Part shown: in pieces, positions 27,793 to 51,691 of the stretch
How the letters are laid out: each line of letters begins with the position of its first letter
Position numbering within the stretch: position 1 is the first letter of the stretch
From: a virus
Length of the DNA: 53,335 bases
Direction: 5' to 3' (one strand)
Virus record (IMG/VR): IMGVR_UViG_3300032326_001284
Location: 1 to 53,335 of that record
Position numbers and translations under genes: made by a program
Notes under the pieces: model-generated
The model's database searches: none
The model's input: the letters and a program-made list of their open reading frames with translations, nothing else
What the model was told of the DNA's origin: nothing

Positions 27793-30780
27793 ATGAAAAT
27801 TACTTTAACCGAAGACCAAATTGCTACAATTAGAGCAAAAATATCTAAAAGCACCCTTAACGAGGACTTCCTTGACGATTTAATATCAAAGGGTAGCAAC
27901 TTTGTAAATAAAGGTATTGAAGCTGGAAAAGAATTTATTTCTGGTTTAGAATTTCCGGTTGAAAAAAAGTCGGAAGATGTTCCAGGGACCGCTGATTTTA
28001 TTAGCGAAAACGTTGACGACTTCTTCAATATATTAAAAAGTATTGACACGCCACTTACACAACAGAAATTGGGTACCATGGTTCACCAACAAGGTGTGGA
28101 AGCTGTTCAAATTGGTTTACAAATATTAGGGTATGAATTACCTAGATTTGGTACGGATGGATTGTTTGGCCCTGAGACAGCGGCAGCCGTTAAGAAATAT
28201 AAACAAGATAAAAGTATTATAAACGAAAGTTCCATACCTGGTATTGATGAAATGGTGTGGAATAAAATGCCATGGGGTATTGATGCGGGTAAAAAACAAC
28301 CTGGCATTAAATGGGCTAACCATGATACTCATATTCATTTTGGATTTACAAATGCCGAGGTTGCTGTTAAAGTAATTGAAAAAGCTAAAGAATTGGGATT
28401 ACACGCTGGTGAAAACCCATACTCAGCTAAAGTACATCCAGTGCATGTGGATGATAGTCATCATTATAAAACGTTCAATCAAACTATAAATGGTAAAAAA
28501 GTAGGCGGTGGACTAGACGTTAGTGGAAATTCCCAAAAAATGGCGGAATTATTTAATTGGGTTTCAACCACATTAGGGGATGGTGGTTCAGTTACTATGG
28601 ATACATCATATGTTGACGGATCTGATAGTTCAACAATGGAAACCATAACACCAAAAATGGCTGAACAAATGGTTCAAGATCTATCATCTAAAGGTGTAAC
28701 ATCCGATGAACTTAAAAAATATATTGACCCAGCAGTTTCTTCTGGGGGTGCTGCATCATTTACTGATATTGATTTAAATACAAATGAAGGTAAAGAAGCA
28801 TACGCAAGAATTTGTCAAAACTATATTGATTCTAGAGATCCAAATGCTAAGGTAAATGGTAAGATGATGGCTGATAGTGCAGCAAATGCATTTAAAACAT
28901 ATAGAAAATATGTTCCACCTGAATTAGCATTGGCCCAATTAACTTTAGAAGGTGGTATTGGTGCTGACGATACTAGTAGACCAATGAAAACCAAAAACCC
29001 ATTTAATGTTGGAAATACCGATAAACCATATCGTGACAACTATCAACCTACTTTTGAAGCGGGTGTAGATCTTTATTATAGTCTTATCGCTAGAAAATAT
29101 TTAGTTAAAGGTAAAACAGCTAGTGATTTAGTTAATGATTTTAGAAATTCTGCAGGTAATCACTATGCTAAACCTGGTGCATATGAAGCAGGATTAAAAA
29201 CATTATTGAATAGCATTAGAAGAAGAAATGCTTCAGTATATGCAGAATTAGCAAAACAAAATACTCAATCGGTAACCGAATCATTATTGTTAGAAGCGGA
29301 TAAGAGACAAGCAATTATGAATGCCTTTGGTTTAAACCAATGGTGGGCTGATGAGTTTCATAGAATGAGTGATAAACTTTCTATTTGGATTGCTGATACA
29401 TTTATTAAAGATTGGTCTAGCAAATCACAAGAGTTAGATAAAAAAGAAATTATATCCACGCTTAATAGACAACCAAACAATTTTGCTTGGAATGGTAGAG
29501 ATGGTTATAAAGAAAAGTATGAATACATTCTACACTGGATTCGTGCACCAAGAAGAGAACCATTGAACATAAGGGCGTTATCATTCGAAGAAGCATATCA
29601 ACAAGCACAAGAGTGGCATGAGAGTTTAAATTATAAAACACAATCTGATTATAACGAGACTGGTGATGTGTTTATTGATTACAGAAATGAAAGTGGGCAA
29701 GGTTACTATTGGGTGCACTTACACAAAAACTATTGTGGTGAGGAAGCCGATAGAATGGGTCACTGTGCAAGATCAAATAACGGGCAATTAATTTCATTTA
29801 GAAGAATAAACGAATTTGGTGAGGGGTCTTCATTATTAACAGTTGACTACAGACCAGGTGGTATCATTGGTGATTTCCATAGACATGGTAATAACAAACC
29901 TACTGCTCGTTTTCATCCACAAATTATTGACTTTCTTACTAATACAACATATCCTGTTACACAGTTAACACGTGAAGGTGTACACAGATATGAAGATAAT
30001 TTCCAATTAGCTGATTTAACTCCAGCTCAAAGAGAAAGCGTTTATGCAAGAAATCAATCATTAAAATATAACATAAATGATCCTGAATCAGTTGTTAATA
30101 TTGTTAATGCGATTTTAGGTGGAGATATTAATTTGAATCAATATCGTGGCGCTGATTTAGTGAAATTAATTAAGAAAGCTAAATCAATTAACAAGGCTGA
30201 TGAACTTAAACAACTCTTTAATAAGCAAACAGTTATTAATTACTATGAAAATCCATCAAGAGATACTAAAGACAATGTAGCATTCTTTAATGAGTTTAGT
30301 GATTTGATAAACGAACATCTAATAGATAAAATAAATGAGCAGAAAGCTAGAGGTAATGGTATGCACATGTTCCAAGATATTTTACGTAACATATCACAAA
30401 ACTTTTTTGAAGCATATCAATCATTCTGTGGGGTAATTGATTTTGGATTTAACGAATTTCCAGATAGACATGCTGAGATATTAGGTGGTAGAGCAATTAA
30501 AAGAACGATACTTTCTTGTACAAACTCTGTTGAATTCTTACATAGATACGTGGACAACAAACCTACAGATAGAAATGGTAATATGGCCGTTAAAACAGAA
30601 GAAGGTTTATGGGGTCTAGTTAACCAGAGTGGTGAAACTGTATTGTTACCAGCATTTTATGGAATCGTCGTTAACCCACGTGATAAATCAGGAAAAACAT
30701 ATCAGGTTGTAAATGCAAACAGAGATATGTTCGTACTTGATATTGAAAGTGGTGACGTTAAAAAATTAGCCAGAAAATAA
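27793..30780 (+). CDS. Multidomain virion-associated lysin with capsid-targeting-like N-terminus
   Basis: A 995-residue mosaic. Residues 1-24 hold LTE and LNE sites in a peptide (MKITLTEDQ) like those of six other genes here. Residues about 98-140 (VEAVQIGLQ, FGTDGLFGPETAAAVKKYK) are a PG_binding_1 domain. Residues about 178-258 (HIHFGF, VHVDDSHHYKTF, GGGLDVSG) resemble a metallopeptidase-like M15-type segment. Residues about 330-470 (PPELALAQLTLEGGIG, KNPFNVGNTD) match a glucosaminidase/lysozyme fold. Near residue 655, RMGHCARSNNGQLISFR is a PcfJ-like motif, and near 936 EGLWGLVNQSGETVLLPAFYGIV is a WG-type repeat. It probably travels in the particle and degrades cell wall during entry. Confidence 0.8.
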   Translation: MKITLTEDQIATIRAKISKSTLNEDFLDDLISKGSNFVNKGIEAGKEFISGLEFPVEKKSEDVPGTADFISENVDDFFNILKSIDTPLTQQKLGTMVHQQGVEAVQIGLQILGYELPRFGTDGLFGPETAAAVKKYKQDKSIINESSIPGIDEMVWNKMPWGIDAGKKQPGIKWANHDTHIHFGFTNAEVAVKVIEKAKELGLHAGENPYSAKVHPVHVDDSHHYKTFNQTINGKKVGGGLDVSGNSQKMAELFNWVSTTLGDGGSVTMDTSYVDGSDSSTMETITPKMAEQMVQDLSSKGVTSDELKKYIDPAVSSGGAASFTDIDLNTNEGKEAYARICQNYIDSRDPNAKVNGKMMADSAANAFKTYRKYVPPELALAQLTLEGGIGADDTSRPMKTKNPFNVGNTDKPYRDNYQPTFEAGVDLYYSLIARKYLVKGKTASDLVNDFRNSAGNHYAKPGAYEAGLKTLLNSIRRRNASVYAELAKQNTQSVTESLLLEADKRQAIMNAFGLNQWWADEFHRMSDKLSIWIADTFIKDWSSKSQELDKKEIISTLNRQPNNFAWNGRDGYKEKYEYILHWIRAPRREPLNIRALSFEEAYQQAQEWHESLNYKTQSDYNETGDVFIDYRNESGQGYYWVHLHKNYCGEEADRMGHCARSNNGQLISFRRINEFGEGSSLLTVDYRPGGIIGDFHRHGNNKPTARFHPQIIDFLTNTTYPVTQLTREGVHRYEDNFQLADLTPAQRESVYARNQSLKYNINDPESVVNIVNAILGGDINLNQYRGADLVKLIKKAKSINKADELKQLFNKQTVINYYENPSRDTKDNVAFFNEFSDLINEHLIDKINEQKARGNGMHMFQDILRNISQNFFEAYQSFCGVIDFGFNEFPDRHAEILGGRAIKRTILSCTNSVEFLHRYVDNKPTDRNGNMAVKTEEGLWGLVNQSGETVLLPAFYGIVVNPRDKSGKTYQVVNANRDMFVLDIESGDVKKLARK

Positions 30781-31329
30781 TTATTGATTTTCTTGATCAG
30801 GACTAAATCCATAAAGTTCATGGAACTTTGGATCAATAGCCGATTTATCTACTTTAGAAATAATATTAGATGCGTATAGAGAATTAGCATTAGATGGCAT
30901 AACAATATGTCCATCTTCATGTACTTCCATACCGTCTTGATAAGGGAAACTACCATTGCTTCCATGTATAGTCCAAACTCTTTTTGCTTGGCTAATAAAA
31001 ACATTTTTACACCTCAAGAATTGATTTAAACGATCTTTGGTTGTTTTAGTTTCCCAACCATTAACATCCACTGTGATTATATTAGCGTGATCAATTCTTA
31101 ATATATCGGTTCTGTAATGTCTAATAGCTATATTGTGGTCGTTAATTTTTCTTAAAACTGTCTCATAACCAAGAGGTCTTTGATCTTTTTTACCTAAGTA
31201 ATTGTCCAATGAATCAAAGTCTAAATTTGTACATTTTAGACTAGTTCCGCCCCATTCTTGCATATCTTGGGCTAATTGCTCATCCATTCTTTGAGCTTGG
31301 CTTTCCGTAATAATTAATTTAATTCCCAT
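30781..31329 (-). CDS. Putative capsid-cargo protein, 182 residues
   Basis: Starts MGIKLIITESQAQRM, matching the ITESQ N-terminus of the gene at 49190. The rest is a soluble mixed alpha/beta protein of unknown family (LRIDHANIITVDVNGWET, then VWTIHGSNGSFPYQDGMEV). It converges on the 995-residue lysin with no intergenic base. A TATTTATG motif precedes it. Confidence 0.65.
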   Translation of the reverse strand: MGIKLIITESQAQRMDEQLAQDMQEWGGTSLKCTNLDFDSLDNYLGKKDQRPLGYETVLRKINDHNIAIRHYRTDILRIDHANIITVDVNGWETKTTKDRLNQFLRCKNVFISQAKRVWTIHGSNGSFPYQDGMEVHEDGHIVMPSNANSLYASNIISKVDKSAIDPKFHELYGFSPDQENQ

Positions 31330-31334
31330 AATAT

Positions 31335-31342
31335 CATAAATA
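31335..31342 (-). promoter_or_regulatory. Putative late promoter TATTTATG
   Basis: On the minus strand TATTTATG ends 5 nt before the ATG at 31329; one mismatch at the last position. Confidence 0.5.
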
Positions 31343-31355
31343 TCTAGAATTTTTT

Positions 31356-31385
31356 TTGTTTTTTAAAGATTATTACATATATTTG
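31356..31385 (+). promoter_or_regulatory. Host-type promoter (TTTG, 19 nt, TATATTTG)
   Basis: TTG at 31356-31358 and TATATTTG at 31378-31385; the ATG at 31393 is 7 nt downstream. It stands back to back with the late-type motif of the minus-strand gene. Confidence 0.7.
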
Positions 31386-31392
31386 ATAGCAT

Positions 31393-31869
31393 ATGGCAAC
31401 TAAACAAGAATTTAAGATATATTGTGACATGGACGGGGTCCTTGTCAACTTTGATAAGGGATATTTCCAATTGACTGGTATTGATTCTACCGAAGATTTA
31501 CCTAATAACCATACGTTTTGGGACCCGATAAACAAAGCCGGGTACGATTTTTGGTTTAATCTTGAATGGATGCCAGACGGTAAAAGGTTATGGAAGTATA
31601 TTTCAAAGTATAATCCAGAACTACTATCCGCACCATCTCGTCAAGAAGATTCAAGAGTTGCAAAACACGATTGGGTTAATAAAGAATTACCCGGCGTGCA
31701 TTTGATTTTAAGAAGTGCAAAAAACAAAAAAGAGTTTGCAGCGCCAAAATCTATTTTAATAGATGATAGAATAGCAAACATTAATGATTGGAGAGAAGCT
31801 GGTGGAATTGCTATTCATCATGTTAATACGAAACACACTATTGATCAACTAAAAAGTTTAGGGTTATGA
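31393..31869 (+). CDS. 5'(3')-deoxyribonucleotidase-like HAD protein
   Basis: A 158-residue protein. IYCDMDGVLVNFDKGY is HAD motif I with the nucleophile Asp, LLSAPSRQ corresponds to motif II, and SILIDDRIANINDWREAGG is motif IV. The DMDGVLVNF start, small cap and length match phage and bacterial NT5C-type nucleotidases, which remove phosphate from deoxynucleoside monophosphates. It could adjust nucleotide pools together with thymidylate synthase. Confidence 0.8.
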   Translation: MATKQEFKIYCDMDGVLVNFDKGYFQLTGIDSTEDLPNNHTFWDPINKAGYDFWFNLEWMPDGKRLWKYISKYNPELLSAPSRQEDSRVAKHDWVNKELPGVHLILRSAKNKKEFAAPKSILIDDRIANINDWREAGGIAIHHVNTKHTIDQLKSLGL

Positions 31870-32042
31870 ATTTAGAAACGTACAAGGATAAATTATCCGA
31901 AGAAAGTCTTAAGTGGTTAGAGGAGTATAGAAAGAAACATCCATTCGATGAGAGAAAATATAAATCAGCACATAAAACTTTTAAGAAAATTAAAAGAGAT
32001 AGACAAATGAGTTATTTAAAAAGTACATTATATGGGAACTAA
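31866..32042 (+). CDS. Small basic helical protein, 58 residues
   Basis: A short Lys/Glu/Arg-rich helical protein (EESLKWLEEYRKKHP, then KTFKKIKRDRQM) coupled to its neighbours by an ATGA overlap upstream and an 11-nt overlap downstream. Function unknown. Confidence 0.65.
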   Translation: MNLETYKDKLSEESLKWLEEYRKKHPFDERKYKSAHKTFKKIKRDRQMSYLKSTLYGN

Positions 32043-32532
32043 CTATTATAGAATACCTACCGTAGAGGAAATGGAGTCTCGTAAGCAAACTCTTATTGGG
32101 TTTGTTAACAATCTTGAATTGTCTCCTGAGAATATTGAAGGTGGATTTAAATTAATAAGTCCCTCAAAAGATTGGGAATGGTTTTCACCGTGGGAAATGT
32201 TTTTGATGGACACTAACGTTCATCTAGGTAAAAGAAGTTCTGGTTGGAAGTTTTGTTGGAATTTCCATAAAGACAAATATTATCATGATAAAGAAAGTTT
32301 ATTAGAATTTATTCGTTCTGGTAGAGTTGTTGATGAATATGGTGACGAAATGAATGCGGAGGAATTTATCACAATGGCACTTGAATGGGGGCAACCGGAT
32401 GGTTTAGTTGTTAATGAAATATACCGATTACAGCAACGCGCCAAAGGTGCTGGATCTTTCTTTGATAGACCTGAATATGACGATTTAATCATTGATGGTT
32501 TAAGGGTTTCAACATCAACTGAGTTTTGCTAA
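32032..32532 (+). CDS. Conserved-type phage hypothetical protein, 166 residues
   Basis: Begins MGTNYYRIPTVEEM and contains repeated Trp-rich stretches (SKDWEWFSPWEMFLM, SSGWKFCWNFHKDKY). The MGTNYY start with the HLGKRSSGWKF block is familiar from small phage and bacterial hypothetical proteins, without assigned function. Soluble, no signal peptide. Confidence 0.75.
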   Translation: MGTNYYRIPTVEEMESRKQTLIGFVNNLELSPENIEGGFKLISPSKDWEWFSPWEMFLMDTNVHLGKRSSGWKFCWNFHKDKYYHDKESLLEFIRSGRVVDEYGDEMNAEEFITMALEWGQPDGLVVNEIYRLQQRAKGAGSFFDRPEYDDLIIDGLRVSTSTEFC

Positions 32533-32545
32533 AAAAATTTAAATT

Positions 32546-32740
32546 ATGTATATTTTAAAAATAATTGGTATAATACTATTATCATTCATTTTTAGTTTTG
32601 CCATGTGGTATTTGATTTTTTGGTTTGTTACCGCCGAAGATAATTTATTTGCTTGGGGCGGCTGGACCAAAGCGGCCTACTTATTTTTGTCTTTCCTGTC
32701 AATGAGCGGGATTGCAGATGAAACATTTAAAGAATTATAG
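32546..32740 (+). CDS. Small membrane protein, 64 residues
   Basis: Two hydrophobic helices (IIGIILLSFIFSFAMWYLIFWFV and AAYLFLSFLSMSGI). It ends one base before the phosphoesterase start, so probably cotranscribed with it. Confidence 0.65.
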   Translation: MYILKIIGIILLSFIFSFAMWYLIFWFVTAEDNLFAWGGWTKAAYLFLSFLSMSGIADETFKEL

Positions 32741-32741
32741 T

Positions 32742-33395
32742 ATGATAAAAATAGATAACGATATTAAAGCTTGGATAACATCCGACACACATTATAACCA
32801 CACAAACATATGTCGTGGTGTGACTAACTGGAGAATGCCCGATGGATCAATACCAATCGCACAAACAAGGGACTATGAAACTCTTGACAGAATGAATAGT
32901 GCAATTGTAAACAACATCAACGAGGTTGTTGGTCAAGATGATGTGTTAATCCATTTAGGTGATTGGTCATTCGGTGGATTTGAAAACATTGAAGAGTTTC
33001 ACGATAGATTGATTTGCAAGAATATACACTTAGTTCTTGGTAATCACGATCATCATATTGATAAAAATAGAGACAACATAAGAAGCAAGTTTTTATCTGT
33101 TAGTTGGTTTGAACAATTCTCATATCAAGGGGAAACTATTGAAGCGTGTCACTATCCAATATCAAGTTGGAATGGGCTTCGTAAAGGGCGTATTCATGTT
33201 CATGGGCATTGTCATTTACCGATGCACAAGAAGGTCAGCAATGGCAGAAGAATTGATATTGGTATGGATGGTAGCCCAATGTTTAGACCTTACGATTTAA
33301 AAGAATTGATAAAGTCAATGAAGAAATTTCCTATTGGTTCAGAGATGGGAGCTGATGATCATCATATGGATGAAATGTTAAATGTTGATCGATAA
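32742..33395 (+). CDS. Calcineurin-like metallophosphoesterase
   Basis: A 217-residue protein starting at the ATG at 32742. SDTHYNHTNI, HLGDWSFGG, LGNHDHH, CHYPIS and VHGHCHLP supply the five metal-binding motifs in order. The substrate class (nucleotide, RNA or protein phosphate) cannot be read; similar phage proteins are generic phosphoesterases. Confidence 0.88.
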   Translation: MIKIDNDIKAWITSDTHYNHTNICRGVTNWRMPDGSIPIAQTRDYETLDRMNSAIVNNINEVVGQDDVLIHLGDWSFGGFENIEEFHDRLICKNIHLVLGNHDHHIDKNRDNIRSKFLSVSWFEQFSYQGETIEACHYPISSWNGLRKGRIHVHGHCHLPMHKKVSNGRRIDIGMDGSPMFRPYDLKELIKSMKKFPIGSEMGADDHHMDEMLNVDR

Positions 33396-33446
33396 TTTTT
33401 TTATTTGGAATTAATTAACTATATTAGTTTATAAACATAAAAAAGC

Positions 33447-33557
33447 ATGAAAAAATTATTAGAAAAAATCAGAACATTTTTTGGTAAACTTTTTATTAAA
33501 AAAGTTGACAATAAGCCATACTATCATAACAATAAAAAAACAGATTTTAAAATATGA
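33447..33557 (+). CDS. Small basic peptide, 36 residues
   Basis: MKKLLEKIRTFFGKLFIKKVDN is an amphipathic basic helix, overlapping the next start by four bases. A promoter-like ATATTAG lies 20 nt upstream. Function unknown. Confidence 0.5.
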   Translation: MKKLLEKIRTFFGKLFIKKVDNKPYYHNNKKTDFKI

Positions 33558-33943
33558 AAGAAATAATTAAAAAGGTGTTTAGTAAAAAGGTAACAACACC
33601 AGTATTTGTAATTTTTGGATTCATTGGGATTCTTAACTTTATAGTATTTCCTGGGTTAACAACAGCTGATACTGGATCTAACATTGTTTCGGCGTTACTT
33701 GCTGTTGTTACTTTGGCATTCCTATTTTATTACATTGACAGTTTTAAATTGATGGAACCACCAAAGGTTGAACCTGGTGAAACTGAATTGGATTATATTA
33801 ATCCCGAAGAGTTAACCCCCAAAAGAAAAAGAAATAGTAAACAATTTCCGGAGGTTAAAAGTGAAGAACCGTTTGTAAAAACTAGAAAGAAAAAGAAATC
33901 GGAATTTCCTTTACCACCTCACCATCCAACTAAAAAGAAATAA
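33554..33943 (+). CDS. Membrane protein with basic cytoplasmic tail, 129 residues
   Basis: Two transmembrane helices (TPVFVIFGFIGILNFIVF and NIVSALLAVVTLAFLFYYI) followed by a Pro/Lys-rich tail ending HHPTKKK. Possibly a small inner-membrane protein of the envelope-takeover set. No family recognised. Confidence 0.65.
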   Translation: MKEIIKKVFSKKVTTPVFVIFGFIGILNFIVFPGLTTADTGSNIVSALLAVVTLAFLFYYIDSFKLMEPPKVEPGETELDYINPEELTPKRKRNSKQFPEVKSEEPFVKTRKKKKSEFPLPPHHPTKKK

Positions 33944-33944
33944 T

Positions 33945-34211
33945 ATGGCAAGATTTAGAAAAAAACCTGTAGTAATAGATGCGGTACAATATGATGGTAA
34001 TTTTAGAAGTTTAGATTGCTTCTCAATTAACGAAGTGTCGCATTTTATTGTTTCAAAAGATTCAGAAGGTAATCAGTGTATTAAGATACCAACATTGGAA
34101 GGTGAAATGATTGCATCAATTGGTGATTACATCATTAGAGGTGTGCAAGGTGAATACTATCCATGTAAACCTGACATTTTTGAAATGACTTACGAAATTG
34201 TAGAAAATTAA
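33945..34211 (+). CDS. PGDYG-like phage protein
   Basis: An 88-residue protein. FRKKPVVIDAVQYDG at the start, TLEGEMIASIGDYIIRGVQGEYYP and KPDIFEMTYEIV at the end match a widespread small phage family with a GDYI.RGV.GE.YPCKPDIF block. Function unknown; often found near replication or structural genes. Confidence 0.8.
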   Translation: MARFRKKPVVIDAVQYDGNFRSLDCFSINEVSHFIVSKDSEGNQCIKIPTLEGEMIASIGDYIIRGVQGEYYPCKPDIFEMTYEIVEN

Positions 34212-34223
34212 AAACAAAACAAT

Positions 34224-35138
34224 ATGGCTTTCGAATCATTTGAAGAACGATACGCCCGCCAAGAAAAAGAGCGGGAACAATTAAAATTAGAACAACAATT
34301 AAAAAAACAAAAACTCATGAAAACAATTGGTGCTGCGGTATTAGGATTTTTTACATTAACTTTTTTATTTTTCTCGTGTGAGAGAATTGATGCTGGTCAC
34401 GTAGGTGTTAAAGTTAATCAGTATGGTGATAATAAAGGTGTGGATGATGTTGTTGCGGTTACCGGTATGGTATTCTATAATCCATTTACTACTACAGTTT
34501 ACGAGTTCCCAACGTTTATTCAACACAAAGAATATAAAGGTGAAAATTCATTCGTTGTAAATAGTAAAGACGGTTCTGAATTTAGTGTGTCACCTATCAT
34601 GAACTACTCAGTTCAACGAGATAAGGTACCAGCAATTTTCAGTAAGTATCGAAGACCGCTAGAAGATATTGAAGAGGGGTTCTTAAAGACAGCAGTATAT
34701 GATGCGTTCAGATTAGCCACTAACAAATATACAGCAGATGAATTGATTTCAAACAGAGCTGTATTTGAAATTGAAGTTCGTAGATTATTAGATGGTCAAT
34801 TATTAAAAGAAGGGTTTGTTATTAATCAGTTTACATCTAATTTGATTTATCCTGAAACGTTTAAGAAATCAATTGAGGCTAAGAACAATGCAGTTCAAGC
34901 AGCATTGAGAGCGGAAAATGAGGTTAAGACAGCAGAAGCTCAAGCTAAGATCAAAGTAGCAACAGCTGAAGGTAATGCTCAAGCAATGCTAACATCAGCA
35001 AAAGCAGAAGCAGAATCAAATAGAATGAAACAACAAACGTTAACACCATTGTTGTTGCAACTAGAATATATTAATAAATGGGATGGTAAGCTGCCAGTAT
35101 ATGGTACTGCGCCAATGTTATATAAACCCGTTAACTAA
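34224..35138 (+). CDS. SPFH/prohibitin-like membrane protein
   Basis: A 304-residue protein. A charged N-terminal helix (residues 9-33) precedes one transmembrane span (TIGAAVLGFFTLTFLFF). The SPFH domain follows (ERIDAGHVGVKVNQYGD, AVTGMVFYNPFTTTVYEFP, KDGSEFSVSPIMNYSV). The Ala/Glu-rich coiled coil KTAEAQAKIKVATAEGNAQAML is typical of band-7 oligomers. Such proteins form membrane rings; in phages they may stabilise or segregate membrane. Codon 17 is CGG. A terminator follows. Confidence 0.85.
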   Translation: MAFESFEERYARQEKEREQLKLEQQLKKQKLMKTIGAAVLGFFTLTFLFFSCERIDAGHVGVKVNQYGDNKGVDDVVAVTGMVFYNPFTTTVYEFPTFIQHKEYKGENSFVVNSKDGSEFSVSPIMNYSVQRDKVPAIFSKYRRPLEDIEEGFLKTAVYDAFRLATNKYTADELISNRAVFEIEVRRLLDGQLLKEGFVINQFTSNLIYPETFKKSIEAKNNAVQAALRAENEVKTAEAQAKIKVATAEGNAQAMLTSAKAEAESNRMKQQTLTPLLLQLEYINKWDGKLPVYGTAPMLYKPVN

Positions 35139-35166
35139 TTTTATTAATTAGCATCAGTTATTTAAT

Positions 35167-35214: not shown

Positions 35215-35221
35215 TTAAGAT

Positions 35222-39976: not shown

Positions 39977-39984
39977 TATTTATA
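39977..39984 (+). promoter_or_regulatory. Putative late promoter TATTTATA
   Basis: Exact octamer ending 3 nt before the ATG at 39988. Confidence 0.6.
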
Positions 39985-39987: not shown

Positions 39988-40242
39988 ATGAAACTTACAG
40001 AAATAGCCAAGACAGTAATGAACGAATATAGTTACAACGGTAAATACGAAGGGGACGAGATCCGTGTTGGCTCATTTTCTAGAAGAAAACTACCGTCTCC
40101 AGTTCTGACTAACGTGTTAAGAGCAATATCTCAAAAGGTTTACGGTACAGCAACAAAAGCCAAATATCTTAATGGTGAATACAATGATATTGAAATAAAA
40201 CTATTTGGCCAACTTATCTCAGCCCTTAACGGGACCTATTAA
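39988..40242 (+). CDS. Small putative capsid-cargo protein, 84 residues
   Basis: Begins MKLTEIAKTVMNEYS, with LTE and a second MNE, like the other (L/I)xE-starting proteins. The remaining 70 residues are basic (GSFSRRKLPSPVLTNVLRAI). The late-type motif just upstream agrees with a virion protein. No family recognised. Confidence 0.65.
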   Translation: MKLTEIAKTVMNEYSYNGKYEGDEIRVGSFSRRKLPSPVLTNVLRAISQKVYGTATKAKYLNGEYNDIEIKLFGQLISALNGTY

Positions 40243-43982: not shown

Positions 43983-44688
43983 AAAAAGATTGGTAGTATG
44001 TGGTGATAGTTTTATGTCACCAACAAGTAATTTACCGGGTACACATTTTTCTGAAATAATATCAGAAGAATTGAATATGGAACTAATTCCTTTGTCTCGT
44101 TCGGCCATGAGTAACGGTGGAATAGTTTCACAGCTCGAGTATGCATTGACATTAGACCCGTCTTTTATATTGTTTAATACAACCTTTGCTGATAGAATCG
44201 AGTTTACATTAACGAATGATAATCTTTTGGATGGTGATCGTGATTTGACTTGTAAAGATTTCTATTATGGTGAAAGAAAAGATTATAGTTGTGATCTTAT
44301 GCGCGATAACGTTCCATTAATTGGTTCTGAATCAATTGAATCTTTGGTTAGGAATGATGGTTTCTTTAAAAGTAAAATGGAATCTGCTAATTTATTTTTA
44401 AATAACATTTATAATAGAAGATGGAAGATACAAACAGATAAGCATCTTATATATTCAATCACACACAGAATGTTTTTAAAAAGAATACCATTCATATTGA
44501 TGTTGGATATTATAAATGCAGGAGAAAACATGGCGTGGTTACCGGAAACACATCGTGGATTTGATTGGACTATGTTGGATAACATAAGATTACTTAACAA
44601 ACCAATTAACTACTCAGATCCTGGATATCACACAACTGTTGAGGTTCAAGAAGTTGTTGCAAAACACACAATAAAAAAAATTAACTAA
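43975..44688 (+). CDS. SGNH/GDSL hydrolase-like protein, second copy
   Basis: A 237-residue paralogue of the gene at 25834. VVCGDSFMSP carries the nucleophile Ser, SRSAMSNGGI the Gly/Asn blocks, and YSDPGYHTTVE near the end fits the DxxxH catalytic pair. The shared NTTFADRIEF segment supports common origin. It follows the 2OG oxygenase in an overlapping pair. Confidence 0.75.
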   Translation: MDKKRLVVCGDSFMSPTSNLPGTHFSEIISEELNMELIPLSRSAMSNGGIVSQLEYALTLDPSFILFNTTFADRIEFTLTNDNLLDGDRDLTCKDFYYGERKDYSCDLMRDNVPLIGSESIESLVRNDGFFKSKMESANLFLNNIYNRRWKIQTDKHLIYSITHRMFLKRIPFILMLDIINAGENMAWLPETHRGFDWTMLDNIRLLNKPINYSDPGYHTTVEVQEVVAKHTIKKIN

Positions 44689-45348
44689 ATGATAGACAAT
44701 TTAGAACTTATTAAACCGTTATTAAACTTTGAAGATCATGAAGATTTCTATATGCTTTATGTTTTCAAACGCAAGAAGGACCAACCAGAAGGAGAAAGGG
44801 ATAACCATCAATCGGTTAGAACTATTAAATCATATTGCATAACATCAATTGCATATCTCGATATGCGATATGATGAGATCAAGATGTTATGTGAGGTGTT
44901 TAAGGCAAGAGCATATATCCACATACAGAAACAAAACCATAAAGATGTTTCTCTGGAAATGATGATGTCTTTATCACAAAGATTGGTTAATAAACAAAAC
45001 AATCAAAAGAATTTATTTGATAGTGTTGTTGGTCAAATGAGAACACTTGAGAAGAGATGGGTTGTTGATATTGATCAGAAAGAAATATCGCCATTGATGA
45101 TTTCACATATTGAATATGTTTGTAAACCAATCACCGAAATCAGTTTTGATCAAGCGGGAATGCCAAACGGATATGAGAGTGGGCCCAAAGTGGAAGCAAT
45201 CATTCCAACAAAGAACGGACATCATTTAATTACAAAAAGATTTGATGTACAAGCATTTAAAGAAAAATACCCAGATGTTGATATTCAAAAGAAGAATCCA
45301 ACATTATTATATTATCCAAACTCATTAGATCAAAATGCAAACGTTTAA
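44689..45348 (+). CDS. Hypothetical protein, 219 residues
   Basis: Soluble mixed protein (IDNLELIKPLLNFEDHEDFYM, then SYCITSIAYLDMRYDEIKMLCEVF). No catalytic motif noticed. It starts directly after the SGNH gene and overlaps the following gene by 14 nt. Confidence 0.75.
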   Translation: MIDNLELIKPLLNFEDHEDFYMLYVFKRKKDQPEGERDNHQSVRTIKSYCITSIAYLDMRYDEIKMLCEVFKARAYIHIQKQNHKDVSLEMMMSLSQRLVNKQNNQKNLFDSVVGQMRTLEKRWVVDIDQKEISPLMISHIEYVCKPITEISFDQAGMPNGYESGPKVEAIIPTKNGHHLITKRFDVQAFKEKYPDVDIQKKNPTLLYYPNSLDQNANV

Positions 45349-45553
45349 GTATTTTCCAAAGAACATTTTTAAAGATAAATGTAGATTAGAAATGGGTTCA
45401 ACATTTATTTTTAAAGGTTATTATTGTATTGTGACTCGATTAAAATTTAATTGGTTTGAATTTACTATTCAGGAAAATAATAGAGTTTGTCATATGAGTT
45501 ATAAGTTTTATTTAACAACACCGTCTGCTGCTGGTAGAAAACTAAATCGATAA
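45335..45553 (+). CDS. Small basic beta-rich protein, 72 residues
   Basis: Short protein with aromatic/basic strands (GSTFIFKGYYCIVTRLKFNWFEF). Overlaps the preceding gene; one base from the next. Not recognised. Confidence 0.65.
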   Translation: MQTFKYFPKNIFKDKCRLEMGSTFIFKGYYCIVTRLKFNWFEFTIQENNRVCHMSYKFYLTTPSAAGRKLNR

Positions 45554-45554
45554 C

Positions 45555-45755
45555 ATGGAACAATTCAATTACGTTATAGCAAGAAGATGGGAAAAAGAAA
45601 AGAATCAGTTAAATTGCTACACATATTTTAACACGGTTTTCTATGGAGATATGGAAGATGCTAGAAATACTTTAGAGTTCATTCGTGGCAGAGCAGATGA
45701 AGATAAAGCACATGAATTTGAGATTTATAAAATAGGTGACGAGCCTTTAAAATAA
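45555..45755 (+). CDS. Hypothetical protein, 66 residues
   Basis: Small soluble protein (MEQFNYVIARRWEKEKNQLN, then GDMEDARNTLEFIRGRADE). Tight packing with neighbours supports it. Function unknown. Confidence 0.65.
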   Translation: MEQFNYVIARRWEKEKNQLNCYTYFNTVFYGDMEDARNTLEFIRGRADEDKAHEFEIYKIGDEPLK

Positions 45756-45761
45756 AACAAT

Positions 45762-45890
45762 ATGGATATCAATAACAAACTATTTTTTTTTAGTATTAGG
45801 AAAGCTAAAGATTGTTTATTCTCTAGAAGAAACGGTTACCAAGGTGTTTTATTATTTGGTTACTCAATTTATTTTACTTTTAAAAAATAA
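45762..45890 (+). CDS. Small basic hydrophobic protein, 42 residues
   Basis: A short frame (MDINNKLFFFSIRKAKDCLFSRR, then VLLFGYSIYFTF) between two gene-like frames. Could be membrane-associated. Support is limited to packing and the absence of alternatives. Confidence 0.45.
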   Translation: MDINNKLFFFSIRKAKDCLFSRRNGYQGVLLFGYSIYFTFKK

Positions 45891-45897
45891 CATAATC

Positions 45898-46101
45898 ATG
45901 AGATTATTTGAATACAAAGAACTAAACAAAAAAGAGCATTACATAACAACAGAGGATTTAAATCGTCTTGGTCAAGAAGGTTGGGAGCTTGTTATGTGTG
46001 ATTCCGGTAACTATATCTTTAAAAGAGAGATCACCGATACATTGAAGAACGATCCGTGGGGAGACATTGGAACACCAAGATATAGACCTAACGGCGAATA
46101 A
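45898..46101 (+). CDS. DUF4177-like small protein
   Basis: A 67-residue protein from the ATG at 45898. FEYKELNKKEHY, LNRLGQEGWELVMCDSGNYIFKRE follows the DUF4177 pattern (L...G.EGWELV......FKR). Function unknown; such proteins are frequent in phages. Confidence 0.7.
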   Translation: MRLFEYKELNKKEHYITTEDLNRLGQEGWELVMCDSGNYIFKREITDTLKNDPWGDIGTPRYRPNGE

Positions 46102-46171
46102 ACTTCCGACTTTGGCAGCATTTTACTACCGAGTTTGGCCAAAAATTCACACCACATATATAGTGGGCGTA

Positions 46172-46179
46172 TATTTATT
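46172..46179 (+). promoter_or_regulatory. Putative late promoter TATTTATT
   Basis: One mismatch to the octamer, ending 3 nt before the ATG at 46183. Confidence 0.5.
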
Positions 46180-46182
46180 ATT

Positions 46183-46737
46183 ATGAAAAATCAAACATTA
46201 AACGAAGAATTATCCCGTATTAAGAATATCATGGGTGTGGCGATCAATGAATCGCCAGATAGACGCGAACCAGAACCACCATCTGATGAAGCCAGAGAGA
46301 TAGCAAAGAAAGTACTATCAGATGTTATGAATCGTGAAGTTAAATATCTATTTGACGATTACGATTTTAATAATGGCGAGATAATGATTTCATTTGGCCA
46401 TGATGATGGTGAAACTGTAACTTATTATTTAGACACAGATGTTACTTCTCATTCATCTTTTACACCAGGACGTAGCCACATGCCAAACGGCGATCCAGGT
46501 TATCCTGATGAAGGTACAGATGCAGATTACGATTTAGGGGTTAGCATGGTTGAAATCGAAAATAATGGCGCTATTGTATATAAAGGAAAAGATTTCACCG
46601 ACATTATGGATATGCCATTATCAGATGAAAGTACAGTTGGCGATAGAATACACAATCAATTTGATGAGAAAATTAGAGAATGGGAATCAGAATATGATAG
46701 TGAGCCGGACTATGATGATTACAGATATGAAGATTAA
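46183..46737 (+). CDS. Acidic putative capsid-cargo protein, 184 residues
   Basis: Starts at 46183 with MKNQTLNEELSRIKNIMG, nearly the same peptide as the gene at 46800 (LNEQISRIKQIM). LNE offers an (L/I)xE cleavage site. The body is strongly acidic (ESEYDSEPDYDDYRYED end) with a beta-rich centre (EIMISFGHDDGETVTYYL). Acidic cargo is plausible in a head. No family recognised. Confidence 0.65.
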   Translation: MKNQTLNEELSRIKNIMGVAINESPDRREPEPPSDEAREIAKKVLSDVMNREVKYLFDDYDFNNGEIMISFGHDDGETVTYYLDTDVTSHSSFTPGRSHMPNGDPGYPDEGTDADYDLGVSMVEIENNGAIVYKGKDFTDIMDMPLSDESTVGDRIHNQFDEKIREWESEYDSEPDYDDYRYED

Positions 46738-46751
46738 TATTGGTCCAAAAT

Positions 46752-46782
46752 AAAAAAACCCCTTTAATAAGGGGGTTTTTAA
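46752..46782. terminator. Bidirectional terminator between convergent genes
   Basis: CCCCTT and AAGGGG arms around TAAT, flanked by A and T runs (AAAAA left, TTTTT right), between the plus gene ending 46737 and the minus gene ending 46800. Confidence 0.85.
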
Positions 46783-46799
46783 TATATGTCCATTAACAA

Positions 46800-47309
46800 T
46801 TAGAATATTGGATCTGTACAGTTTCTTCTTCTATCTGGGTTATTACGTAACCAAGACTTAACTAGGTAATAGATGATAAACCCTAAGATTATTGCTGACA
46901 TAGCAATGAATAAAGCCCAACCTAATGATACACCGAATACCATTGTGGTAGATAGAGCTGCTTGTTCTTGCATTTCATCTTTAGATGCCATCGCTTCTTT
47001 AATCTTTCTTTTTTCTTGTTTCAATTGATCAGGAGTAGCTTTTTTCATTGCTTCAACTATCTGTGCAATTTTACTCTTACCTTCTTGACCAAATTTTTGT
47101 TCGATTTCAGGACCAACTTGTACAGCTGGTGCTTGATCTGATTGTGCTTCACAAGAGATTTCTTTATATTCCTGAACGGTTAACTCTTCATCAGCTTCTT
47201 GGTTAAAAGCTTCTGTATCTTGTTGCCATAAAGCCATCATGTTGCTTTCATCTTCATTTATGTTCATGATTTGCTTTATTCTACTAATCTGCTCGTTTAA
47301 TGTTTTCAT
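46800..47309 (-). CDS. Putative capsid-cargo protein with C-terminal membrane helix
   Basis: A 169-residue protein beginning MKTLNEQISRIKQIMNINEDES. The middle is acidic and Gln/Glu-rich with a helical AEQ-type region (KIAQIVEAMKKATPDQLKQEKRKIKEAM). A membrane span follows (TTMVFGVSLGWALFIAMSAIILGFIIYYLV), with a basic end. A packaged protein that can insert in the membrane would suit DNA delivery or early envelope modification. Confidence 0.65.
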   Translation of the reverse strand: MKTLNEQISRIKQIMNINEDESNMMALWQQDTEAFNQEADEELTVQEYKEISCEAQSDQAPAVQVGPEIEQKFGQEGKSKIAQIVEAMKKATPDQLKQEKRKIKEAMASKDEMQEQAALSTTMVFGVSLGWALFIAMSAIILGFIIYYLVKSWLRNNPDRRRNCTDPIF

Positions 47310-47327
47310 TATATATCTTTTATAGTA

Positions 47328-47335
47328 TATAAATA
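47328..47335 (-). promoter_or_regulatory. Putative late promoter TATTTATA
   Basis: Exact octamer on the minus strand, 18 nt before the ATG at 47309. Confidence 0.5.
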
Positions 47336-47392
47336 TAGTTATTTTTTAAATGATATAATAATTTGGTAATAAATTTTTGTTTATAAGGTGGC

Positions 47393-47400
47393 TATTTATC
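47393..47400 (+). promoter_or_regulatory. Putative late promoter TATTTATC
   Basis: Near-exact octamer ending 3 nt before the ATG at 47404. Confidence 0.5.
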
Positions 47401-47403
47401 TGA

Positions 47404-48111
47404 ATGAAAGTAGACGCGTTGTTTATTAGTGATGTTCATCTTGGATCAAAAGGATCCAATGCTGAGGAGGTTTTAAACGTTTTAAAATACTATCAACCAG
47501 AATATCTATTCTTGGTTGGGGATATTATCGATGGTTGGTTATTAAAACGTAAATTTCGCTGGCCCCAATCTCACACAAATGTATTAAGAAAGATCTTATC
47601 CTATTCAAAGAATGGCACAAGGGTCATATATATTCCTGGTAATCATGATGAGTTTTTAAGAGAGTACGGAGAATTCTCTTTTGGAAACGTTGAAATTCAT
47701 AATGAGTATATATGGAAGCAGACCTTTATTACTCACGGTGATTTATATGATGGTGTCGTAAAATTAAAGTGGTTGGGGGTTCTAGGTTCTATTGGATATG
47801 ATATGGCCATTTCTATTGATAGACAATTAAAGAAAATGGGTATGAAACGTTCTTTATCTAAGTTTTTAAAGAACAAGGTAAAAGAGGCGGTTAAGTTTAT
47901 TACTCAGTTTGAAGTAGAACTTGTTCGTCAGGCTAAGAAACATCATTGTATAAATGTAATGTGTGGCCACATTCATCATCCTGATGATAGAATGATTGAT
48001 GGTGTTAGATACTTAAACACCGGGGATTGGATTGAAAATAACAGTTACATTATTTATAAAAACGATGAGTTCATCTCTAAAAGATATTCTGACCATAGTC
48101 ATTCCAAGTAA
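47404..48111 (+). CDS. LpxH-like metallophosphoesterase (UDP-2,3-diacylglucosamine diphosphatase-like)
   Basis: A 235-residue protein. FISDVHLGSKGSNAEEVL, LVGDIIDGWLLKRKFRWP, IPGNHDE, FITHGDLYDG and VMCGHIHHP supply the calcineurin-like motifs in the spacing and context of the LpxH/YbbF group, which makes lipid X in lipid A synthesis. A phage copy could alter lipid A or a related surface precursor. It overlaps the following glycosyltransferase by 47 nt. Confidence 0.82.
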   Translation: MKVDALFISDVHLGSKGSNAEEVLNVLKYYQPEYLFLVGDIIDGWLLKRKFRWPQSHTNVLRKILSYSKNGTRVIYIPGNHDEFLREYGEFSFGNVEIHNEYIWKQTFITHGDLYDGVVKLKWLGVLGSIGYDMAISIDRQLKKMGMKRSLSKFLKNKVKEAVKFITQFEVELVRQAKKHHCINVMCGHIHHPDDRMIDGVRYLNTGDWIENNSYIIYKNDEFISKRYSDHSHSK

Positions 48112-48778
48112 GAATGAATCCAGAAACATATACGATTGTGTTTATCACATATCGAAGCAAGCCAACATTACTGGTACAAAAATAATCATTGCAGATGTGT
48201 CTGATGAAAAGGATTCTATTAACTGGATTCGCAGAACCTGTGTTGATTTTAATTACACGTTAAAGATAAAAGTTATCAAAGGTGGATACCCAGCAGAGGG
48301 AAGACTAAATGGATCAAAGCTAGCGTCTACCAAATATGTGTTGTTTATTGATGCGGATGTATTTCTAACAAACAAACATATTATATCTGAAGTTATAAAA
48401 CATGAAAAAGATCTAGCGACAGTTCCTTTCAACACAGATAAACCATATAATATTGTTTTTAGATTCTTTGATTTATTCCAATATCTTGGATCAAAACTTG
48501 GTTCCCCATTTGCAATAGGTGGGTTTCAATTATGGAACACTGAAGCCTACTGGTCAGTTGGTGGATATAATCCAGAGGAAAGGTTCGCAGAAGATTATTC
48601 TATATCACAAAAAGTTATTTCAAAGAACTTTAAAGTGGTTAATATACACGGAGCTTATACATCCGCAAGAAGATTTCAAAAGAAAGGAGTTCTATGGATG
48701 TTTAGTATTATGATTAAGAGTTATATAAACAGAAAGAAACCAGAATTCTTTAAACATCATCACAACTACTGGACTTAA
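48065..48778 (+). CDS. Family 2-type glycosyltransferase
   Basis: A 237-residue GT-A protein starting at the ATG at 48065. LTIVIPSKNESRNI is the nucleotide-binding start, VLFIDADVFLTN the DxD motif, and GGFQLWNTEAYWSVGGYNPEERFAEDYSIS the acceptor and catalytic region. Coupled to the LpxH-like gene, suggesting that both modify an envelope lipid or polysaccharide precursor. Confidence 0.88.
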   Translation: MSSSLKDILTIVIPSKNESRNIYDCVYHISKQANITGTKIIIADVSDEKDSINWIRRTCVDFNYTLKIKVIKGGYPAEGRLNGSKLASTKYVLFIDADVFLTNKHIISEVIKHEKDLATVPFNTDKPYNIVFRFFDLFQYLGSKLGSPFAIGGFQLWNTEAYWSVGGYNPEERFAEDYSISQKVISKNFKVVNIHGAYTSARRFQKKGVLWMFSIMIKSYINRKKPEFFKHHHNYWT

Positions 48779-48891
48779 TGCAAACAATATATCCCTGGAT
48801 TTTTTCGTTTACTATTGTTGGTGTATTCGTTATATTACAAATAATAGTAAATCAGTTAAATGGCAAAAAAACAACTACAGAAATTCGTTAA
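48778..48891 (+). CDS. Single-span membrane peptide, 37 residues
   Basis: MQTIYPWIFSFTIVGVFVILQIIVNQL is one membrane helix, with a short polar tail. It overlaps the glycosyltransferase stop by one base and the next gene by 32. Position suggests a small partner for the envelope enzymes. Confidence 0.6.
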   Translation: MQTIYPWIFSFTIVGVFVILQIIVNQLNGKKTTTEIR

Positions 48892-49177
48892 GGAATGGAA
48901 CGAAGCAACCCCGTCAGAAGTCTTTGAGGGTGTTAGAGATAACTTTATCTTTGGATTCTTAGGTGCAACCATTGTTGTATTCATATCCACTAGAGCCGAT
49001 CTAATGGTAATTCTTGGTTATCTGGCTTACTATTTCTTTATGGGTAGGATTGTAAACCGCCCAAAGTATGTAACTGATCTAGGTAAGTTGATCGTCTTTC
49101 CTATTCCATCCGCATTTGGTGCATTTGCGGGGTATAAGATATCATATCTCCTTCAAGGCTTATTAAATCATGTGTGA
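48860..49177 (+). CDS. Membrane protein, 105 residues
   Basis: A basic amphipathic start (KKQLQKFVKEWNEATPSEVF), then two or three hydrophobic helices (FIFGFLGATIVVFI, LMVILGYLAYYFFMG, FPIPSAFGAFAGYKISYLL). No family recognised. Last gene of the LpxH-like/GT2 cluster. Confidence 0.7.
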   Translation: MAKKQLQKFVKEWNEATPSEVFEGVRDNFIFGFLGATIVVFISTRADLMVILGYLAYYFFMGRIVNRPKYVTDLGKLIVFPIPSAFGAFAGYKISYLLQGLLNHV

Positions 49178-49185
49178 TATTTATA
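49178..49185 (+). promoter_or_regulatory. Putative late promoter TATTTATA
   Basis: Exact octamer ending 4 nt before the ATG at 49190; the TGA of the previous gene lies immediately upstream. Confidence 0.6.
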
Positions 49186-49189
49186 ACAT

Positions 49190-49750
49190 ATGAAGATATT
49201 AATTACAGAAAGTCAATTAAAGAATCTACTGTTAGAAGAAGATAAAACCTCAATTAATGAAGAAGATTCAAACGAATTATTACGTTCTATTTACTCTTTA
49301 GCTAAAAATAATAACGGTCTTTTTAAATCTGAGAAGCAAGCACAGTTTCTTAAACGACAGATAGATTTTAGAGACGGTATAGTCGGAAGTCAAGAAATGT
49401 ATGGTAACTCAGTATCTGTGCGTGCGGAATATGATGACAAAGGAATCACAAAGATATACACACACTCTCATAAGACTAACAGAGACGTGGTAAAGTTTAT
49501 AAGAATATCTGATGAACAGTTTAAAGATAATCAAGATAGGTTTATATCAAATCGAAATGCTGAGATTGAAAAAGCTAAATCCGGTATAGTACAGAACATA
49601 CAGCAACGTATTGATTTGTTAAGAAACGATATAGCCGAATTAGCAAATGAGATAGACAATGATCCGTCAATGGCTATAATCCTTAACAAACATATTGATA
49701 GATATCGTTTAGAATTGGTAGACTTAGAACGTCAACTAGCAGAGCTTTAA
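49190..49750 (+). CDS. Putative capsid-cargo protein with coiled coil, 186 residues
   Basis: Begins MKILITESQLKNLLLEEDK, with ITE and LLE sites and a further INE near residue 23. The C-terminal half (EIEKAKSGIVQNIQQRIDLLRNDIAELANEID and following) is a strong coiled coil. It converges on the gene at 49760. No family recognised. Confidence 0.68.
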   Translation: MKILITESQLKNLLLEEDKTSINEEDSNELLRSIYSLAKNNNGLFKSEKQAQFLKRQIDFRDGIVGSQEMYGNSVSVRAEYDDKGITKIYTHSHKTNRDVVKFIRISDEQFKDNQDRFISNRNAEIEKAKSGIVQNIQQRIDLLRNDIAELANEIDNDPSMAIILNKHIDRYRLELVDLERQLAEL

Positions 49751-49759
49751 CCGAATAAA

Positions 49760-51691
49760 CTACCCAACATCTAGGATTGATTTCTCAATTGAATTGATTG
49801 AGTATGGATTATCATCCCCACCCATCATATTGTATTTGTCTTGAATAATCTTTTTAAGTTCACCGCCTAATCCAAGTGATCCATATATTCTTGAATCGTC
49901 CAGATCAACTTGTTGTTCCATAAATTGTGGAAGAATACTTCTATAATAATTTACTAATGAACTCTTTAATCCCTTTTTTATACCGTAGTCAACTTCCTGA
50001 AAAGAAATTTCAACGTCTTCACCACGTCTAGCTCTTTGTATTTTATTTAAAACTATTGAACTTAGATTTGCTTTATCTTTAATTCGGTAAAACTCTGTAT
50101 GCGAATACTCACCCCCATGTTTTGTCCTTCTTAATCTAATAAGTTCGTTGATTTCATTGTCTGGAATATCAAAAGTCATTAACTCATGAGTTAAATTTCT
50201 ATATGTTTCTTGTTCCAATTCTCTTAGGTTTACGAAGATTTTTTTAAGCGCGATTTTAACGTCATTAGTTTTCTTTACTCTATTAAAGAATCCGGCGTGA
50301 ATTAAATTTATTTTTCTAGAACCATTAATAAACACCTCATAACCACCATCTCCATCAGAATATTCTTGAAACTTTATCCAAACATAATTCTGTAAGAATT
50401 TAATCATGTTTGCTAATTTCGTCACAAGAACATTTGGATTGACATCACTTAGATCATTGAGATATTTGGTGAATAAATCTTTATATGTATTCGTAAGAAC
50501 TTGAAGTTTTTCTGAATGAAACACATTGAAATTATAATCCTCTTCTTGCATATACAAACCAATGTCGCCCACAATACTTTTAACAATATCTTTGACGGCC
50601 CTTTGATATGTCCAATTTTTTTCACCATTGGTCATATCCTCATCGTCAAGCAATTGGTTAATATCTTTAATTAGTTTATCAACGTTTTGTTTATCCCTTT
50701 TAATCCTTTCTAATTCCTTATTAATTGATTTAAATTTAGGATAAACGCCAATGCTATTTAAATAGTTTATAACATTATCTATGTGAGTATCATCCATTAA
50801 ATGTGACGCACTAATCTGATCCCCATTCATTGTAAAGCCAATCATAACATAGTTTTCATCAACGTTTTCATCAAAGTTAAAAAATACATATTGATTTCTG
50901 TTGTCAGCGGTATAGTTGGCATATTGTTCTTTACTATCATAGATACACCAAGATGGCGAACCAATAAGTCTTAGCCCCTCAAATGAATTAACTAATACCA
51001 AAAGCTTTTCGTCTTTATCATAAACAACTTTTAAGTCGTTACTTGATTTGACTTTTTCCATAATAGAATCATATGAAACACCAAGTTTATGAAATTTAAT
51101 AAATGATGTTAAATAATTCTTAAGGTCTTGGGGTGTTTTATATCTGCTAAGTTTGCTTTTGAATCTGGTTTCAGCCGCTGTGCCTTCAATCTCTCTAAAG
51201 TAATAACTAATTTCCACGGACAAATCATTCCCACCCTCAATAAGTCTGGTTCTAAGATTTTTATCAGGGATTATATTATAGAATTTCTTAAGATTCTTTT
51301 TATGTTGTATTAGATTAATATCCTTTTCTAAATCTAATAAATCAATATACTCAGTTAATTTCTTTGGTAAAAGAGATAGGTCTTGTCTATTGGCTTTTAA
51401 TTTTTCATATATATGGGTTGAGTGAGCCCAAAGTCTTTCAAGATAATGAACTTTATTTTCGGGGTAATCAGTGATTATTTTTTGAATATCACTATGGTCA
51501 TTTAAAGTATTATATACAAGATTTATAATAATACCCAGAAAGCCGATAGAGTTATCGGCTGCCAATCTTTGTTTGAACGCAACGTAATCTGGATCATCAA
51601 GGGGAACTTGGATTATTTTTAGGATTTTCTCAGCTTTCGCCACGTCTTCCATAAGCATTAATTGTTCCGCAAGTATATTCTTAAACTTCAT
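49760..51691 (-). CDS. Large putative capsid-cargo protein with divergent PcfJ-like motif
   Basis: A 643-residue protein starting at the ATG at 51691 (MKFKNILAEQLMLMEDVAK, with LAE and LME sites); the longer frame reads through the late promoter. Near residue 270, GSPSWCIYDSKEQYANY followed by NQYVFFNFDENVDENYVMIGFTM is a WCI-type motif related in pattern to the PcfJ-like domains elsewhere in the window. Much of the rest is helical and charged. Probably a virion protein; activity unknown. Confidence 0.7.
   Translation of the reverse strand: MKFKNILAEQLMLMEDVAKAEKILKIIQVPLDDPDYVAFKQRLAADNSIGFLGIIINLVYNTLNDHSDIQKIITDYPENKVHYLERLWAHSTHIYEKLKANRQDLSLLPKKLTEYIDLLDLEKDINLIQHKKNLKKFYNIIPDKNLRTRLIEGGNDLSVEISYYFREIEGTAAETRFKSKLSRYKTPQDLKNYLTSFIKFHKLGVSYDSIMEKVKSSNDLKVVYDKDEKLLVLVNSFEGLRLIGSPSWCIYDSKEQYANYTADNRNQYVFFNFDENVDENYVMIGFTMNGDQISASHLMDDTHIDNVINYLNSIGVYPKFKSINKELERIKRDKQNVDKLIKDINQLLDDEDMTNGEKNWTYQRAVKDIVKSIVGDIGLYMQEEDYNFNVFHSEKLQVLTNTYKDLFTKYLNDLSDVNPNVLVTKLANMIKFLQNYVWIKFQEYSDGDGGYEVFINGSRKINLIHAGFFNRVKKTNDVKIALKKIFVNLRELEQETYRNLTHELMTFDIPDNEINELIRLRRTKHGGEYSHTEFYRIKDKANLSSIVLNKIQRARRGEDVEISFQEVDYGIKKGLKSSLVNYYRSILPQFMEQQVDLDDSRIYGSLGLGGELKKIIQDKYNMMGGDDNPYSINSIEKSILDVG

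Follow-up and report, generated by a model that had tools for sequence, protein, structure and literature searches.

Short swappable N-terminal tags on seven unrelated proteins of an uncultured T4-type phage are probable head-packaging signals

Why do seven otherwise unrelated proteins of one virus begin with short, similar peptides? To address this question, we analyzed a 53,335-nt stretch (the window), a 53-kb fragment with 32% G+C of the IMG/VR virus record IMGVR_UViG_3300032326_001284. A sequence-only reading had proposed that the genes at 27793, 30781, 39988, 46183, 46800, 49190 and 49760 share an N-terminal signal with (L/I)xE within about twelve residues, that this signal resembles the T4 capsid-targeting peptide MKTYQEFIAE, which is cut by the gp21 prohead protease, and that the rest of the proteins (lysin, coiled coil, acidic, membrane-anchored and PcfJ-like) is a packaged-effector set of a non-T4 jumbo phage. 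Our results suggest that the proteins are probably cargo packed in the virus head and carried into the next host.

First, we examined the N-termini themselves. All seven peptides are present, and thus the observation was confirmed. Two start positions need care. The gene ending at 46737 starts at 46183 (MKNQTLNEEL...), not at the longer TTG start at 46135, and the minus-strand gene 49760 starts at 51691 (MKFKNIL...), not at 51748. In both cases, a TATTTAT element lies just upstream of the start given here. Each protein has (L/I)xE within 12 residues (LTE, ITE, LTE, LNE, LNE, ITE and LAE, in the order of the genes above). By itself, this is not beyond chance: 14 of 80 genes in the window have (L/I)xE ending by residue 14, against 10.0 on average in internal stretches (maximum 18 in 200 draws). 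The features are as follows (a slash marks the presumptive cut site).

27793 to 27864, plus strand: type A tag MKITLTEDQIATIRAKISKSTLNE/ of the 995-aa protein (27793-30780); conserved in the homologues G006_40209 and G002_24316, with LNED/INED at the same column (here LNED or INED, without a cut mark).
27793 to 30780, plus strand: cargo, a peptidoglycan-binding domain (PG_binding_1, E=1.9e-5) plus a probable cell-wall hydrolase (endolysin phrog_2649), then an "MGHC" domain of unknown function.
29257 to 29295, plus strand: internal junction QSVTESLLLE/ADKRQ between the lysin part and the C-terminal MGHC domain.
31255 to 31329, minus strand: type A tag MGIKLIITESQAQRMDEQLAQDMQE/ of the 182-aa protein (30781-31329); the homologues G006_39674 and G002_23768 are likewise tagged, with PITE/A and DLNE/F at the same place.
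39988 to 40026, plus strand: tag MKLTEIAKTVMNE/ of an 84-aa protein (39988-40242), the weakest of the seven; similar to MISLVNIAKNLLE/SYS of the gene next to gp23 in G001; no family found.
46183 to 46251, plus strand: type C tag MKNQTLNEELSRIKNIMGVAINE/ of an acidic 184-aa protein (46183-46737); its core is near-identical to that of 46800 (TLNEELSRIKNIM and TLNEQISRIKQIM) on an unrelated body.
47253 to 47309, minus strand: type C tag MKTLNEQISRIKQIMNINE/ of a 169-aa protein with a C-terminal membrane segment (46800-47309).
49190 to 49261, plus strand: type A tag MKILITESQLKNLLLEEDKTSINE/ of the 186-aa protein (49190-49750).
51647 to 51691, minus strand: type B tag MKFKNILAEQLMLME/ of the 643-aa protein (49760-51691); it resembles the type B tags MKFKKILTSILIE/S and MKFRDLLQDLLEE/Q of G001; no family found for the body.
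27781 to 27787, plus strand: putative late/virion promoter element TATTTAT(A) before 27793.
31336 to 31342, minus strand: TATTTAT element before 30781.
39977 to 39983, plus strand: TATTTAT element before 39988.
46172 to 46178, plus strand: TATTTAT element before 46183.
47329 to 47335, minus strand: TATTTAT element before 46800.
49178 to 49184, plus strand: TATTTAT element before 49190.
51697 to 51703, minus strand: TATTTAT element before 49760.

In this list and below, G numbers are IMG/VR records compared with the window and L numbers are environmental loci. Within otherwise collinear proteins, the homologues G006_40209 and G002_24316 carry an M23-like stretch (recognized by eye) where the window has a different sequence, suggesting a lysin-domain swap.

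Motif discovery on phage N-termini had been proposed in advance as a way to check the shared signal, and we performed it on 495 non-redundant N-termini of relatives, with the window families left out. Two initial runs were captured by a paralogous family in G010 and by composition; therefore, non-redundant proteins and a capped motif share were used. The best motif was I-K-L-T-E-S-Q-x-K-K-L-V, with a log-likelihood of 345 against 275-290 for shuffled N-termini. The held-out window proteins 49190 (rank 1) and 30781 (rank 4) scored well, whereas 27793 (top 6%) and the others did not stand out. Thus, the longer similarity is beyond chance, but the seven do not share one motif. They fall into at least three tag types: A (27793, 30781 and 49190), B (49760 and, loosely, 39988) and C (46183 and 46800). 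The early ITE/LNE sites are probably part of the targeting helix. The likely cleavage sites are the second (L/I)xE at the tag end, namely LNE24, INE23, INE19 and INE24 in 27793, 46183, 46800 and 49190, respectively. In 30781 and 39988, the end site has M in place of L/I (MQE and MNE).

Next, we investigated what kind of phage carries these genes. The gene at 2594 encodes a phrog_1409 protein whose best isolate matches are T4-like cyanophages, and its close relatives in IMG/VR include records of 169-251 kb. The presence of a gp21-like protease had been set beforehand as a condition that the proposal must satisfy. No gp21 was found in the window, which is a fragment and also lacks the head genes. 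In contrast, record G001 (251 kb), which shares only 14 window genes at a median of 85% identity, encodes a gp21-type S77 protease (E=2e-24) and gp23 (E=1e-63), with gp17-, gp20- and gp22-like genes in T4 order, named by position and resemblance. G010, found through a relative of the 49190 protein, has the same set (gp21, E=2e-23). The His, Ser and Asp motifs of gp21 align with those of T4 and KVP40. The gp23 propeptide ends in SYLINE/A where T4 has SFLTE/A and KVP40 has AGLNE/A, and this INE/A is like the INE ends of the window tags. T4 gp21 cuts after L/I-x-E, and the T4 capsid-targeting sequence (CTS) is the 10-residue N-terminal propeptide of IPIII (PMC9026906). Thus, the phage is T4-type, not non-T4. 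In G010, about two dozen paralogous genes of unknown function beginning with ME/KKExLKRIFEFLEEK (here the slash marks an alternative, not a cut site) are scattered in clusters around the head genes (14117-16620, 49295-50517, 65334-68353 and 74654-79774). In the window, a tRNA-Arg(CCG) overlaps the start of the called ORF for a signal-peptide-bearing protein (6870-6960 and 6876-9775), followed by a DUF401 transporter-like gene; both have homologues in G001. A NifU/IscU-like iron-sulfur scaffold gene (E=1e-50) lies at the end of the fragment (52922-53332).

To clarify whether the tags are separable from the proteins, we compared the bodies. The 49190 body matches untagged proteins of Polaribacter phage Freya_8 (49% identity), Aeromonas phage PAc and coliphage JS10 (NrdC.8). 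The alignments begin at query residues 28-32 and at residues 2-5 of those proteins, so the roughly 27-residue tag is an extension. In the environmental locus L131, the same domain carries another extension, MIRYKEFIKEHTEAELQAIEDLLIE/A. The MGHC domain of 27793 occurs in seven aligned proteins. Upstream lie a type A tag, type B tags, a minimal MLISE, or the end of a lysin module; nevertheless, P1 is Glu and P3 is L or I in 7 of 7. One cargo carries a type B tag in G002 (MKFRSIIHQILE/D) and a type A tag in L199 (MKVIITESQLKRLLE/T), aligned at the same Glu. A deoxynucleotidase-like protein is tagged in the cultured Flavobacterium phage immuto (MKKVMGNLADLLLE/ESDFMPKYQIYCDMDGVL) but not in the window (31393, MATKQEFKIYCDMDGVL; NT5C). 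A broad regex listing of tag swaps was too noisy to use. Tag-A-like motifs also occur inside or at the C-terminus of G001 proteins (179062-180603, 82238-83071 and 2-472; RLSESELVKLISGMVNEAVPG and RLTESELIELVKKIM), perhaps multi-site scaffold proteins, and the signal is therefore not purely N-terminal.

We then asked how widespread tag A is. A short-peptide tblastn search of phage records with the tag gave no match. A DNA pattern for MK(1-3 residues)ITESQL gave at least 120 stretches in viral contigs. In the readable loci, 80 of 86 hits are in frame, every one of these opens an ORF of at least 45 aa, and the bodies fall in 44 clusters with no detectable similarity. The control pattern with the peptide reversed gave 44 stretches in the whole collection, with 15 in frame and two ORFs of at least 45 aa (Fisher p = 2e-12). 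Among 40 unrelated bodies, 29 have a second (L/I)xE within 18 residues of the core, against 5.3 +/- 2.0 expected; the commonest layout is MKxxITESQ(L/F)Kx(L/I)xE. In L182 (IMGVR_UViG_3300042569_001487; 5968-9494, minus strand), five tagged genes (MKYLITESQL...) lie in 3.5 kb, a cargo array with partly related bodies. Of 30 tagged records of at least 60 kb, 15 have gp21 and 14 have gp23, and all 14 with gp23 have gp21. The protease is found in the relatives G001 and G010 and in 15 further tagged records. One more has gp20 at its cut end, and none of the 16 without gp23 shows an HK97-type capsid gene. Since 2 of 9 control records of that size have gp21 (Fisher p = 0.14), gp21 co-occurrence alone is weak; it is supportive, not decisive.

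The upstream regions were also analyzed. TATTTAT lies within 40 bases upstream of 7 of 7 tagged window genes and 8 of 76 others (p = 1.5e-6; 1% of random stretches). In independent tag-A loci, it precedes 31 of 70 tagged and 157 of 754 other genes (p = 2.5e-5). TATTTATA is among the most enriched upstream octamers in G001 and G002, and precedes gp17, gp20, gp21 and gp22 in G001. T4's late promoter is TATAAATA and is known to diverge in relatives (PMC1524935). That TATTTATA is the late promoter of this group is our inference.

A cultured phage shows the same layout. Flavobacterium phage vB_FspM_immuto (immuto_2-6A, NC_055915), among the closest isolates by terminase and capsid, has an annotated prohead protease and Gp23. 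Four of its proteins begin with MENFDLKKFLVENKLT.NSKLLKEG-like sequences and two with MKKQILSEQFKRMQ.LAGIITES (presumptive cut site before the final S), with unrelated bodies. The best such pairs score 95, while controls show at most three pairs above 38. The second tag resembles those of 46183 and 46800. In this phage, TATTTATA precedes the terminase, sheath, tube, hub and tape-measure genes and the tagged genes 24569, 25061, 81525 and 117631. A second upstream motif, TTAGGTATC, precedes nine small genes at 67-74 kb and none in the structural half, and is possibly an early promoter. No paper describing its virion proteins was found in the literature searched.

The domains found on tagged proteins were PG binding (27793), amidase, phage lysozyme with LysM, cell-wall hydrolase, M23, GH19, C39 peptidase-like, SprT-like, Gp88, nucleoside 2-deoxyribosyltransferase, and 2H phosphoesterase with a sub-threshold match to anti-CBASS Acb1. 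Most tagged proteins have none, and no function in the host is known for them. Relatives of 46800, 30781 and 49760 were sought in viral contigs and none were found; the cargo is hypervariable. No PcfJ match was found for 49760 or 27793, and the Pfam PcfJ hit is in the untagged gene 19754; hence the name MGHC was used for the C-terminal domain of 27793. Some cargos looked by eye like ADP-ribosyltransferases such as T4 Alt. However, there was no Pfam hit and the AlphaFold models of two were poor (pLDDT 41 and 33), so this identity is not claimed and no fold search was run. An anti-phage-defence library searched with ten proteins gave nothing.

Based on these results, we consider, with good but not full confidence, that the N-termini are capsid-targeting propeptides. 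In this view, each cargo gene would be expressed with the virion genes from a TATTTATA-type promoter, and its 10-30 residue, mostly amphipathic tag would bind the gp22-type scaffold core of the prohead. The gp21-type protease would then cut after (L/I)-x-E at the tag end, and in at least one protein also at an internal junction, freeing the cargo inside the head; DNA would be packaged around it, and the cargo would be ejected into the next host. Tags would be interchangeable modules, so that any protein could be recruited by gaining a tag and a promoter. The sequences themselves demonstrate the modular tags, the conserved (L/I)xE at the junction, the gp21 and gp23 genes in relatives and the shared element, whereas packaging, cleavage, ejection and the action of each cargo are inferred; neither presence in the head nor cutting after the Glu was measured here, and no virion proteomics or N-terminal sequencing was found for any of these phages. 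Many cargos are cell-wall hydrolases, which are not an obvious class to hide in a head. The sequence-only interpretation was therefore partly supported: a T4-type targeting and processing tag on varied cargo is supported by independent evidence, but several tag families exist, the bare (L/I)xE count is not significant, and the sites it pointed to are mostly not the likely cleavage sites.

A broader reading, which we regard as somewhat more likely than not, is that a large group of uncultured T4-type phages, and phage immuto, runs an open protein-packaging system, in which several families of swappable tags, each ending in the prohead-protease site and coupled to a virion-gene promoter element, recruit dozens of unrelated cargo families into the head, some made as fusions cut apart inside it. 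The tag would let the injected proteins of an uncultured phage be read from sequence alone. Proteins injected with phage DNA act first against the host, yet few are known outside T4, P1 and the giant phages. A recognizable tag turns many hypothetical proteins of environmental phages into candidate injected effectors, gives new capsid-loading signals to test as delivery tools, and allows direct tests of which defences they meet.

Other explanations survive less well. The tags might be real localization helices that lead elsewhere, such as the tail or baseplate, the envelope, or a replication or assembly focus, with (L/I)xE reflecting helix end-capping. The many peptidoglycan hydrolases, which could belong in a tail or envelope, the internal motifs and the weak gp21 co-occurrence would fit this. 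However, we consider it unlikely, since at the MGHC junction the upstream sequences are unrelated, in three proteins not even a terminus, yet L/I at P3 and E at P1 hold, and the major capsid protein of the same phages has the same kind of site at its T4-aligned maturation point. Less likely still, another protease of host or phage might cut or recognize the tags for regulated activation or turnover, for example to hold lysins inactive. Cleavage-like junctions are well supported, nothing here identifies the protease directly, and half of the tagged records of at least 60 kb show no gp21. On the other hand, every tagged record with a visible gp23 also has gp21, the promoter element is shared with head and tail genes, and non-lytic cargo carries the same tags. 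Chance similarity of short Leu/Ile/Glu-rich N-termini in an AT-rich genome, suggested only by the non-significant (L/I)xE count, is already contradicted by the in-frame bias, the 44 unrelated bodies, the second sites, the immuto pairs and the promoter association.

Among known systems, in phage P1 the N-terminal 30 residues of DarB suffice to send a foreign protein into a head (PMC9024508). P1 has no separate T4-type scaffold, and no tag shared across many unrelated cargos is described in the parts of that work consulted. In phiKZ and SPN3US, many head-packaged proteins are processed after Glu by a gp21-related, gp245-type protease and ejected (PMC5694885, PMC10052503). These are giant phages with other capsid proteins. 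Their propeptides are not one swappable short tag family. Phage immuto shares the T4-type head genes including a prohead protease, tags on unrelated proteins and the TATTTATA element, although it is not annotated as having targeting tags and is only distantly related to the window phage (9 window genes, 44% median identity). The closest system is the T4 CTS of IPI/IPII/IPIII and Alt, processed by gp21 (PMC9026906, PMC3012670). As there, a short N-terminal propeptide ending in (L/I)xE is shared by unrelated internal proteins, T4-type gp21 and gp23 are present (here in relatives), and the cargo is hypervariable between phages. However, the tags (MKxxITESQLKxLxE, MKFKxILxxLLxE and MKxTLNEQxxRIKxIMxxNE) resemble MKTYQEFIAE only in the ending, are often longer with two (L/I)xE, head dozens of cargo types including cell-wall hydrolases, and are also used as internal junctions. 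Thus, we describe them as a variant that works like the T4 CTS, with other tags and far more kinds of cargo, and not as the T4 CTS itself.
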